45,013 nucleotides of DNA from Patescibacteria group bacterium. Lineage in GTDB: Bacteria > Patescibacteriota > Patescibacteriia > Magasanikbacterales > UBA922. The notes under the pieces are model-generated. The model did no database searches. It saw only the letters and a program-made list of their open reading frames with translations, and was not told where the DNA came from. The DNA is taken from assembly GCA_028687045.1 (NCBI GenBank), contig JAQUAW010000007.1:1-45013 (forward strand), read 5' to 3'. Numbering within the stretch: position 1 is the first letter of the stretch; each line of letters begins with the position of its first letter. This document shows positions 1,024-8,410 of the stretch, in pieces. The position numbers and the translations under genes are program-made.

Positions 1024-1049
1024 AAAAAAATCTGCTTATATAGAGCAGA
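1024..1049 (-). terminator. Intrinsic terminator = expression platform of the cobalamin riboswitch
   Basis: Minus: TCTGCT-ctatata-AGCAGA-TTTTTTT directly before the ATG at 1023. Confidence 0.8.
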
Positions 1050-1113
1050 AAAATAGTTTAAACAAATCTTATTTGTCAAAAAAATAAGAATTATATTCCT
1101 GCTCGGGATAAAT

Positions 1114-1221
1114 CATATTTGAAGACCGGACTCAACTTTTTGGCTAAAGTATTACCGTTGCGGCACAGTGGAGGAATTCCCGCCCGTCTGGGGGTGGGTC
1201 ACCTCACTTCCAACAAATATA
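1114..1221 (-). ncRNA. Cobalamin riboswitch aptamer
   Basis: Minus strand: TATATTTG(P1)-TTGGAAGTGAGGTGA-[CCCACCCCCAGACGGGCGGG]-AATTCCTCCACTGTGCCGCAACGGTAATA...AGTTGAGTCCGGTCTT-CAAATATG(P1'). Contains CCGCAACGGTAA and a B12-box-like GAGTCCGGTCTTC, closed by an 8-bp P1. Confidence 0.88.
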
Positions 1222-1351: not shown

Positions 1352-2209
1352 ATGAATACAAAAAATTTGTTAGTTGCTACTCTGGCTGTTTTGGCCTTGG
1401 TTGGTGCTGGTTGTACCCAATCTATTAATTTGAATAGTAGTTCTAATGGTGGTTTCAATTTTGGAAAAAATAATGTGAAAGAAGAAAGTGATGAATTGGG
1501 TGTGGGTAGTAAAGTTTTTGCCGAGTGGAAAGAAAATACTTGGTACGAAGGTTCTATTGATAATACCTGCGAAGGTGGTTTCAATATTTATTTTGTTGAT
1601 AATTCTACAAAATGTGCTTCAGCTTCTGAAATTTTGAAAAACAAAATTCTCAAAGCAGAAGAAGTAAAAGTAGGTACCAAAGTAATTGCCAAATGGACTG
1701 CAAAAGCTTATTATGACGCTGAAGTTATAAAAGTGAATGTAGATAAATATACAGTAAGATATTATGACAAAATGGAAAGAGATGTGACTTTGGACGAAAT
1801 GATATTAGATACACGTATTGATGTCAGGGGAGATGAAACTCAAGTTGGACAAGTATTGAAAGATAATTTCAAAGTAGGGGATGTTGTAGTAGCTGAGTGG
1901 ATGACCGCTGATTCTCTATATAGTGCCAAGATACAAGGTGTTTGTGACAAAGGTTTGACTGTAAAATATTATGATAATGCTGAAAAATGTTTGGAAACTT
2001 CTCAAATAATATTGGATGTACCAGCTACCAAAGATATTTTACAAGCTGATACCAAAGTGTTAGTGAGAGATACTAATACTAGTAATTTCTTTGCGGGTAA
2101 AATCACTAAAATAGTTGGTGTAAATTATGAAGTGGTTTATAAATTGTATGGTGATGAAGTTACCAAAACTTTACAAATTGCACAATTGAGAATAGATAGT
2201 AGAAAATAA
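1352..2209 (+). CDS. Lipoprotein with four tandem Tudor/Agenet (SH3-like) repeats
   Basis: Lipobox LVGAGC; repeated pattern V(x)A(E/K)W...Y...I/V...YxVxYYD... Confidence 0.75.
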   Translation: MNTKNLLVATLAVLALVGAGCTQSINLNSSSNGGFNFGKNNVKEESDELGVGSKVFAEWKENTWYEGSIDNTCEGGFNIYFVDNSTKCASASEILKNKILKAEEVKVGTKVIAKWTAKAYYDAEVIKVNVDKYTVRYYDKMERDVTLDEMILDTRIDVRGDETQVGQVLKDNFKVGDVVVAEWMTADSLYSAKIQGVCDKGLTVKYYDNAEKCLETSQIILDVPATKDILQADTKVLVRDTNTSNFFAGKITKIVGVNYEVVYKLYGDEVTKTLQIAQLRIDSRK

Positions 2210-6467: not shown

Positions 6468-7049
6468 TTATTTGTTTAGTTTAAATTTTGGGAAAAACAT
6501 ACCAACTTCTTTTTGATATTGTTTGTATTCTACAAAAGTTTGTGATAATAATTTTTCTTCTTGTTTGGCTCGGTAATACATGAAAGGTATAAAAATAAAG
6601 GCGTGAGCCAGAAAAGCTAAATAGTTACTGTACACTAAACACGAACCAATAAACATCATCATTAGAGAAGCATAGAGTGGATGCCTGACTAGTTTGTACA
6701 TCCCAGTTTTGGTAAGAGTATGGTTTTGATAAATCTTTATTTGGTTTGCCCAATTTTTACCTAAGTTTAGCCTTCCTACAATGTTGATTGTACATCCAGC
6801 TATAATCATCGTCAATCCTGATAAAATTAGTATATATTGTAAATTTTGGGGTATTTGGATAGTACCTATTTGGAATCTAATTAATAAATAAAAGCCAACA
6901 AAAAATAAAGTCATAGTACCTGTTTCTACAATGCTTCTTTTTTCTTTTGTGGCTTTTTTGTCTAATCCTTCTACAAAATTGATAAGTATAGATGTGAACA
7001 GAGCAAACAGACAAATGCCAATAATTATATTTGAAATTAAGTTTATCAT
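6468..7049 (-). CDS. Isoprenylcysteine carboxyl methyltransferase (ICMT/PEMT)-like membrane methyltransferase
   Basis: YKLVRHPLYASLMMMFIGSCL...EEKLLSQTFVEYKQYQKEV. Confidence 0.8.
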   Translation of the reverse strand: MINLISNIIIGICLFALFTSILINFVEGLDKKATKEKRSIVETGTMTLFFVGFYLLIRFQIGTIQIPQNLQYILILSGLTMIIAGCTINIVGRLNLGKNWANQIKIYQNHTLTKTGMYKLVRHPLYASLMMMFIGSCLVYSNYLAFLAHAFIFIPFMYYRAKQEEKLLSQTFVEYKQYQKEVGMFFPKFKLNK

Positions 7050-8410
7050 TTTCGGTGGAACATGTTATAAGCTGAAAAAGGAATCTTTTTTAGCTCAGGA
7101 GTTATAATATGGACACATTCTTTTTGCATAGATTTCATATCGAAATTATAAACATCAATAAAAGAAGTGACACTAATACGAAAAGTATTTTCATCAATAT
7201 ATTTTAATTTTTCCTCTTGTGACTTTAGCAAGAAACTTGCTGGGATAATATTTTTGACGTCTTTGATAAAGTTAGTACAATTACAACCACCAATTCCAGA
7301 AAAAACTTCGTTGGCTTTTTCTTTCAAAATAGCATCAGCATCAAAAGCAAAAGTATTATCTATCAAAGGTAAATAACTTTTGACTTTTATTTTTCTCGTG
7401 ATTGGCACAAATTTCTTTTTGTCTGATTTGACCATATATGTCACAGCCACTCTTTCTACATTGCAAGGTAGTGGAATGATGTCACCTTTTTGAAATAAGT
7501 CGGGAGATTGTTCTTCTATTTTTTTGATAACGCCTGACAGAGTTAATCTGTTTTTGGTATTTATTTCTCTCAATCTCCCAAAGTAGGTGACTGGTTGAAA
7601 ATTTATACCTCTGATACCTTTTGTCTCGGTACCAAATTCTATGATTTTGCCAATTTGATCGTCGTTGTAACCTTTGTCTAAAGTAGTTACTAGAGTAATA
7701 GGTATTTCGTATTTGCGTAAATTTTCAATAGCTTTTAATTTTGTTTCTAACAAATCTCTACCTCGTAAGTGTGTGTAGGTACTTTTTTCAAAACCATCAA
7801 ATTGTAAATACACTTCGAATTTACCTTTGAACTGACTAAGTTCCTTTACAAATTCTTCATCTTCAGCAATTCTAATACCATTGGTATTGAGCATGATATA
7901 TTTTATCTTTTTTTCTCGAGCTGTTTTGATAATCTCAATTATTTCAGGATGAACAGTTGGTTCACCTCCACTAATTTGTAAAATTTCTGATTCACCACCT
8001 TCACTATCCACCAAAAAATCTAACATTTCAGATATTTTTGCTACTGCCAAAGGTTCGCCTTTTCCACTATTGGCATAACAAGTTGGGCAACTAAGATTAC
8101 ATTTGTTAGTGACTTCTATCAAAGCTATACAAGTGTGTTGATCATGTTGAGGGCATAGTCCACAATCAAAAGGGCAACCTTTTTCTGTTTGGGTTTGGGT
8201 TTTGCAAGGTGTGCCTGGTTTATCAAATTCTCGTTTGCTTAGGTGATACTCTACATCTTCTTCAAATAGTTCCTCTTGTAAGCCGTGTTCTTTGCAGAAT
8301 TTGTGTAAAAATACTTTTTCATCTTTTATAACAATTTTTGTAGGTATTACTTTTAGACATTTTGGACAAATACTCGTGGTCGATTCGTGATAAATATAAT
8401 TTCTATCCAT
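7046..8410 (-). CDS. Radical SAM protein of the MJ0619/Tes-like family
   Basis: N-terminal SICPKCLKVIPTKI; GCPFDCGLCPQHDQHTCIALIEVTNKCNLSCPTCYANSG with CxxxCxxC. Confidence 0.82.
   Translation of the reverse strand: MDRNYIYHESTTSICPKCLKVIPTKIVIKDEKVFLHKFCKEHGLQEELFEEDVEYHLSKREFDKPGTPCKTQTQTEKGCPFDCGLCPQHDQHTCIALIEVTNKCNLSCPTCYANSGKGEPLAVAKISEMLDFLVDSEGGESEILQISGGEPTVHPEIIEIIKTAREKKIKYIMLNTNGIRIAEDEEFVKELSQFKGKFEVYLQFDGFEKSTYTHLRGRDLLETKLKAIENLRKYEIPITLVTTLDKGYNDDQIGKIIEFGTETKGIRGINFQPVTYFGRLREINTKNRLTLSGVIKKIEEQSPDLFQKGDIIPLPCNVERVAVTYMVKSDKKKFVPITRKIKVKSYLPLIDNTFAFDADAILKEKANEVFSGIGGCNCTNFIKDVKNIIPASFLLKSQEEKLKYIDENTFRISVTSFIDVYNFDMKSMQKECVHIITPELKKIPFSAYNMFHRK

Follow-up and report, generated by a model that had tools for sequence, protein, structure and literature searches.

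The minus strand of the window—that is, of the whole 45-kb contig of 45,013 nucleotides that was analysed—carries at about 1238-1024 an element that covariance models, folding and comparison with relatives confirm, at the level of sequence, as a cobalamin riboswitch of clan CL00101, and which very probably represses an operon apparently for B12 capture and uptake by premature transcription termination. The best-supported reading is that the bacterium is probably auxotrophic for B12 and that the riboswitch is B12-OFF, its terminator and antiterminator excluding each other; in this reading we infer both the binding of the ligand and the sign of the response, while the anatomy of the RNA, its conservation and covariation, and the gene order in relatives are observed in the sequences. 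The host, whose genome assembly measures 1.15 Mb and is 96% complete, belongs to the CPR and is Magasanikbacteria-like, its nearest named relatives being Candidatus Magasanikbacteria. With most cofactor pathways missing, CPR bacteria have to obtain vitamins from their neighbors, the importers and regulators involved being largely unknown.

The RF01482 (AdoCbl) model aligned to the element over its full length (1-149) with 43.3 bits and an E of 7.8e-7 in the 401 bases searched, and over the whole 1.15-Mb genome the element was the sole match (E 5.3e-7). Since the Rfam gathering score of RF01482 is 50 bits, a default scan with cmscan at that cut-off reports nothing at the element, and for the same reason we assigned the RNA to clan CL00101 and not to the RF01482 family, with which it shares the helices and the B12 box. 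The assignment to the clan follows from the significant covariance match, from the covarying junction helices together with the B12 box, from a kissing loop between L5 and L13, and from the B12-related genes downstream. A covariance model constructed from relatives (R1) gave the element 107 bits, in which model, however, the window sequence was itself part of the training set. The window RNA also folded better than 199 of 200 shuffled sequences (z -2.4), and the other Rfam matches in 950-1350—CRISPR repeats, sRNAs, a miRNA, and SAM-II—were discarded as chance, all of them having E values of at least 0.89. A preliminary description, made from the letters alone, had recognized a cobalamin aptamer on this strand, which recognition is borne out by the genome-wide RF01482 search and by R1; the cmscan check that it proposed thus gave a significant match, though one below the Rfam cut-off. 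The RNA is a riboswitch of a known type, with an L5/L13 pair typical of the clade, that the Rfam cut-off misses.

In the aptamer (all positions being on the minus strand) the P1 strands UUAUAUUUG (1222-1214) and CAAAUAUGA (1121-1113) pair in the fold, and the P1 pairs covary in relatives (helices 1-2). P1 had been described as a helix of 8 bp between TATATTTG (1221-1214) and CAAATATG (1121-1114), both of which strands are present, but the fold gives 9 bp. P3 (1207-1170), which the RF01482 alignment forms from G(U)GAGG (1207-1202) and CCUCC (1174-1170), has two-sided changes in 4 of its 5 pairs and 99.8% of its cells paired among 100 distinct sequences. Its loop is enlarged by a 20-nt hairpin, CCCACCC..GGGCGGG (1198-1179), which had also been pointed out beforehand and is indeed there, but as a private insertion, missing from all 25 other sequences of the 26 that make up alignment A1, the basis of R1. 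The alignment and the covariation place L5, UGCCG closed by UG/CA, at 1165-1161; the literature consensus for this loop is UCCCG (PMC10653944). The alignment of relatives further gives a junction-closing helix of three pairs, CGG (1157-1155) with CCG (1129-1127), whose middle pair changes two-sidedly in 37 of 100 sequences and whose outer two never vary, and a P6 hairpin, ACUUU/AAAGU (1150-1135), that covaries in all 6 pairs. The B12-box-like AGUCCGGUCUUC (1132-1121) was located by the RF01482 alignment, with A107, G108, C110, and G112 of alignment A1 invariant. Upstream, a consensus scan found promoter-like TTGACA (1270-1265) and TAAGAT (1247-1242) at a spacing of 17 nt, agreeing with the consensus at 10 of 12 positions; this promoter-like sequence, by itself without functional weight, would put the transcript start near 1235, just ahead of P1. 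The letters and positions of the preliminary description—P1, the B12-box-like GAGTCCGGTCTTC, the insert, GAGCAG, CTGCTC, the terminator with its T7, and the ATG at 1023—were all verified.

Among 95 related genomes the RF01482 search detected the element in 35, and in only 14 of the 95 above the cut-off, whereas R1 recovered it in DUF4430 loci missed by RF01482 (e.g., L069, L072, L083, and L103-L106) and, over the class, in 78 of 381 genomes. When 100 distinct sequences were aligned, 25 of 28 pairs exhibited two-sided changes and 90.1% of the paired cells were standard pairs. The covariation score was 0.643 versus 0.171 for shuffled sequences and at most 0.157 for slid controls; these figures, obtained from related sequences fitted to a structure model, lean towards the structure, the slid controls nevertheless being far lower. 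In L098, L097, L096, L004, and L129, second copies of the riboswitch stand ahead of short TAT-/lipoprotein-like proteins of 120-160 aa, some of which carry a WLFYV/I motif and may be divergent DUF4430 domains. One CPR genome includes a contig of 7.5 kb (L101, G030:C10) with TonB-receptor-like and CobT/CobS-like cobalamin genes and cobalamin-type riboswitch matches, apparently contamination by another bacterium.

P13, its loop L13, and the kissing loop, which the preliminary description had left unnamed, must, to judge from the sequences, constitute the link between aptamer and antiterminator. P13 is the hairpin UCC[CGAGCA]GGA (1108-1097), to which the near-invariant UCCCGAGCAGGA of the relatives corresponds, and its stem, paired at 92.5%, shows two-sided changes in each of its three pairs. 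Compensatory changes give GCC/GGC (L010, L021), UCCU/AGGA (L004), and CUCC/GGAG (L002, L007), and in L023 and L030 the P13 stems are much longer and unrelated in sequence. L13, CGAGCA (1105-1100), was delimited through its covariation with L5, to which it is joined by the five standard pairs A1100-U1165, C1101-G1164, G1102-C1163, G1104-C1162, and C1105-G1161, with A1103 bulged. The loops of relatives occur in matched L5/L13 types, namely UGCCG/CGAGCA, UCCUAG/CUAAGGA, AUCCG/CGAGAU, UACCG/CGGGUA, and UCGCG/CGCGA. When every L5 was scored against the hairpin loops that follow it in the same sequence, the fit was 0.851, against a mean of 0.781 (sd 0.008) in permutations, of which it exceeded 1000 of 1000, the permutation and combined p-values overstating the certainty because the sequences are related. 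L5 and L13 are nearly constant among close relatives, the covariation stemming from the more distant members, and the eleven members with UCCCG in L5 fit the kissing model more poorly. A kissing interaction between L5 and the GGGCGGG of the insert was rejected, the insert being private and L13 conserved. In the env8HyCbl riboswitch, which controls translation, the L13 of the kissing loop is likewise bulged, but that kissing loop contains a mismatch as well, where the window has five standard pairs (PMC10653944).

The intrinsic terminator, returned by the terminator scan, consists of a stem at 1049-1031 (6 bp, 3 of them GC, with a 7-nt loop; hairpin -6.6 kcal/mol), the shortness of which counts against the reading, and T7 at 1030-1024; in 400-1700 it was the only one found, with 0.5 expected. 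In the minimum-energy fold a 9-bp antiterminator helix joins GAGCAGGAA (1104-1096), which overlaps L13 and the 3' side of P13, to UUUCUGCUC (1051-1043), which overlaps the 5' arm of the terminator. That GAGCAG (1104-1099) complements CTGCTC (1048-1043), so that the two states look mutually exclusive, had been noticed in the preliminary description, and the pairing proves real and recurs in relatives in shifting register and sequence. Folding of the two states, as there proposed, gave -16.0 kcal/mol for the antiterminator and -14.0 for P13 plus terminator, the unliganded fold being thus the antiterminator by only 2 kcal/mol; P13 alone amounts to -1.6 kcal/mol. An intrinsic terminator lies downstream in 61 of the 70 relatives with a recognizable L13 motif, and at those 61 loci the duplex of the P13 segment with the terminator averages -13.7 kcal/mol, compared with -8.7 for shuffled terminators. 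The complementary piece of the terminator moves from CUGCUC (window, L005) to CUCGG (L006, L012), UCGGG (L009, L015), or CCUGC (L010), which shifts point to selection on pairing rather than on sequence. Competition with P1 as the switch was rejected, since P1 and the antiterminator are both formed in the minimum-energy fold; and as those two do not overlap, it must be P13, with the L5-L13 kissing loop, that provides the coupling.

This layout resembles that of the Priestia megaterium metE corrinoid riboswitch, with the same L5-L13 kissing loop stabilizing P13, the same repression by termination, and the same weak P13 set against a stronger antiterminator (PMC10653944). In that RNA, which was tested by mutation, the 3' side of P13 pairs with the 5' side of the terminator, and the antiterminator surpasses P13 in stability when the kissing loop is missing (PMC10653944); in the window, the 3' side of P13 similarly pairs with the 5' arm of the terminator as an antiterminator. 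The window RNA differs in having UGCCG and not UCCCG in L5, a bulged A in L13, an antiterminator that includes most of L13 (GAGCA) plus the 3' side of P13, and uptake-type genes, not metE, under its control.

In the mechanism that we propose, RNA polymerase would transcribe the aptamer first; if cobalamin were bound, L5 would kiss L13 and keep P13 closed, in which state GAGCAGGAA would be locked and unable to pair with the 5' arm of the terminator, the terminator would form, and transcription would end just ahead of the ATG. Without the ligand, the 9-bp antiterminator would displace the weak P13, and the operon would be read; a modest gain in P13 stability from the kissing loop would be enough to shift the equilibrium between the states. 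The products of the operon would bind B12 outside the cell and import it for use by the adenosyltransferase and the B12-dependent ribonucleotide reductase.

Since translation is the target of many cobalamin riboswitches (PMC10653944), and since the ATG here comes immediately after the U-tract and lacks an obvious Shine-Dalgarno, the same aptamer might operate mainly at that level, the liganded platform hiding the start region; but we regard this possibility as unlikely in view of the canonical terminator with its T7, of terminators complementary to P13 in 61 of 70 relatives, and of the position of the start codon, which the terminator hairpin does not include and which many relatives have far downstream. 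Very unlikely, in our estimation, is a decayed cobalamin-like aptamer or a sensor of some other corrinoid form or tetrapyrrole: the core positions are all intact, the private 20-nt insert is confined to the P3 loop, and the L5 of UGCCG instead of UCCCG, which along with that insert and the sub-threshold Rfam score would speak for such an origin, is common to 66 of 100 distinct relatives. More than one corrinoid can elicit a response from corrinoid riboswitches (PMC9600662), and the ligand of the window RNA may be the adenosyl, methyl, or hydroxo form. The least credible alternative, to which we give hardly any weight, is an activating switch in the manner of A. halodurans cobT, of which a precedent does exist (PMC10653944), with P13 itself blocking the terminator; P13 shares no positions with the terminator and can exist beside it, a forced fold having accommodated both, and instead competes with the antiterminator, as befits a repressing layout, while the uptake-like target genes are of a sort normally repressed by the product.

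As to the operon that the B12-OFF switch would control, a DUF4430 gene of 192 aa (1023-445; PF14478 at 54 bits, cut-off 23.8) has its ATG directly after the T-run and encodes a protein with a hydrophobic N terminus and a transcobalamin beta-domain-like C terminus. Its end is overlapped by the start, at 464, of a toroid+DUF4430 (transcobalamin-like) gene, of which the window holds the 5' part (464-3) as an open-ended ORF cut by the contig end. The remainder is found at G000:C23:1-1437, succeeded by a DUF6580 gene at C23:1574-2107, with neighbors and order as in genome G002, so that the operon was, most simply, divided between contigs by the assembly. In relatives the order is DUF4430, a squalene-cyclase-like toroid protein of 660-980 aa (often with a detectable DUF4430), and DUF6580. 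For a class-level homologue of the toroid+DUF4430 protein (L145; predicted pLDDT 86), the window copy being truncated, the 15 best PDB fold matches were transcobalamins, haptocorrin, and intrinsic factor, with a Foldseek E of 1e-12 to rat transcobalamin and with both the toroid and the beta domain in evidence; and the sequence profile of the toroid protein reaches the C-domain of transcobalamin-2 (E 8.6e-6). As in that fold family, an alpha-alpha toroid is followed by a small beta domain (DUF4430), but the toroid protein is bacterial and has extra C-terminal Ig-like stretches, and in the Magasanikbacteria it is preceded by a second, separate DUF4430 protein, which is anchored, and the order and lengths are not the same.

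For DUF6580 the predicted fold (pLDDT 87) had B12-bound BtuM as its first match (Foldseek probability 1.00, TM 0.61-0.66, E 0.064), and the nine best matches, weak as they are (E 0.064 to 1.1), were all BtuM/FolT/ThiT/RibU or other ECF S-components; the best sequence-profile match was 6fnp, which we take to be the cobalamin transporter ECF-CbrT, at a nonsignificant E of 0.15. The predicted structure thus makes DUF6580 a candidate importer. BtuM, a solitary S-component-like B12 transporter, works without an ECF module (PMC6072759), and DUF6580 likewise has a predicted helical membrane fold and no EcfT, but differs in having no detectable sequence homology to BtuM and in lacking its essential, invariant cobalt-ligand cysteine; DUF6580 alignment A4 contains no invariant cysteine at all, and H24 is invariant instead. 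Operation of DUF6580 with a standard ECF module was rejected, the PF02361 search having found no CbiQ/EcfT in the 95 genomes. We lean, on balance, towards DUF6580 as a new family of B12 importers without EcfT, for which family we infer the transport function from the modelled fold, and which would be fed by the anchored transcobalamin-like binders, in a module that would be shut off by the riboswitch and would supply the class II ribonucleotide reductase across much of the Patescibacteria.

We searched the genome for the B12-related families PF02310, NrdJ, PF01923, PF02361, DUF4430, and DUF6580. Its genes include one for a ribonucleotide reductase of class II, dependent on B12 (PF08471, 132 bits), and one, at 193 bits, for a cobalamin adenosyltransferase of the PduO type, and no PF02310 B12-binding protein was found in it; the reductase is apparently the sole B12-dependent enzyme found in the genome so far. 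Over the 95 genomes, DUF4430 and DUF6580 were both present in 47 of the 49 that had either, the other 2 having DUF6580 only (p 4e-25), and DUF6580 was accompanied by an over-threshold NrdJ in 42 and not in 7 (p 8e-10, or 3e-7 after collapsing to genus), which p-values are inflated by shared ancestry. DUF6580 occurred alongside a divergent, low-scoring reductase in 0 of 23 genomes, and the adenosyltransferase accompanied NrdJ in 41 of 42. Among 80 loci fetched by DUF6580 alone—many of whose contigs are also in the R1 training set—an R1 match lay upstream on the same strand in 47 and on the opposite strand in 0, with one of the 80 having a second match, downstream. Rfam cobalamin aptamers exceeded the cut-off in 3 of 10 further-scanned loci (L211, L215, and L250), L211 being among the 47. 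Across the class, the same aptamer was observed ahead of genes that, identified by eye from sequence, look like class I NrdAB (L172), class III NrdD/NrdG (L164), and other reductase genes (L095, L170), as would be expected if B12 status set which reductase is made.

In the open-access literature—the range of the search, so that novelty is provisional—we found no paper on a cobalamin riboswitch in Patescibacteria: articles joining riboswitch, cobalamin, and candidate phyla radiation are not about such a switch, and those on Patescibacteria that mention riboswitches do not mention cobalamin; nor did we find a paper there on DUF6580. Although switches of this type are known, the occurrence of one in CPR bacteria and the importer that it would control appear undescribed; the operon is the more novel part, apparently an undescribed B12-scavenging operon widespread in Patescibacteria. 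A B12-sensing switch would give a function to unannotated genes, making DUF6580 a testable B12 importer and the DUF4430/toroid proteins likely binders of B12, which would be bacterial counterparts of human transcobalamin. The riboswitch may also serve as a natural ligand-controlled expression element for Patescibacteria, for which group inducible systems have been called for, with riboswitches named as candidates (PMC11665869).

Elsewhere in the window, the divergent neighbor of the riboswitch operon (1352-2209, plus strand) encodes a putative lipoprotein with repeated Tudor/DUF4537-like domains, and similar proteins occupy the same place in genomes G001-G003. At 7046-8410 (minus strand) is a radical SAM protein with an HMPTM zinc ribbon that matches TrsS at 371 bits and the tetraether lipid synthase Tes at 331 bits, both below the cut-off. 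A group I intron (RF00028, 67 bits) at 31856-31460 (minus strand) interrupts a tRNA gene at or close to the anticodon arm, with exon pieces around 31960-31925 and 31460-31405; with ARAGORN, the window gave no intact tRNA. A degenerate copy of the 5' part of this tRNA (TTCGACGGTAGC...) occupies 32060-31990 (minus strand), about 90 bases upstream of the interrupted gene, and near it GTAGCCCCGACAAGTCGGGG-like hairpins are repeated.
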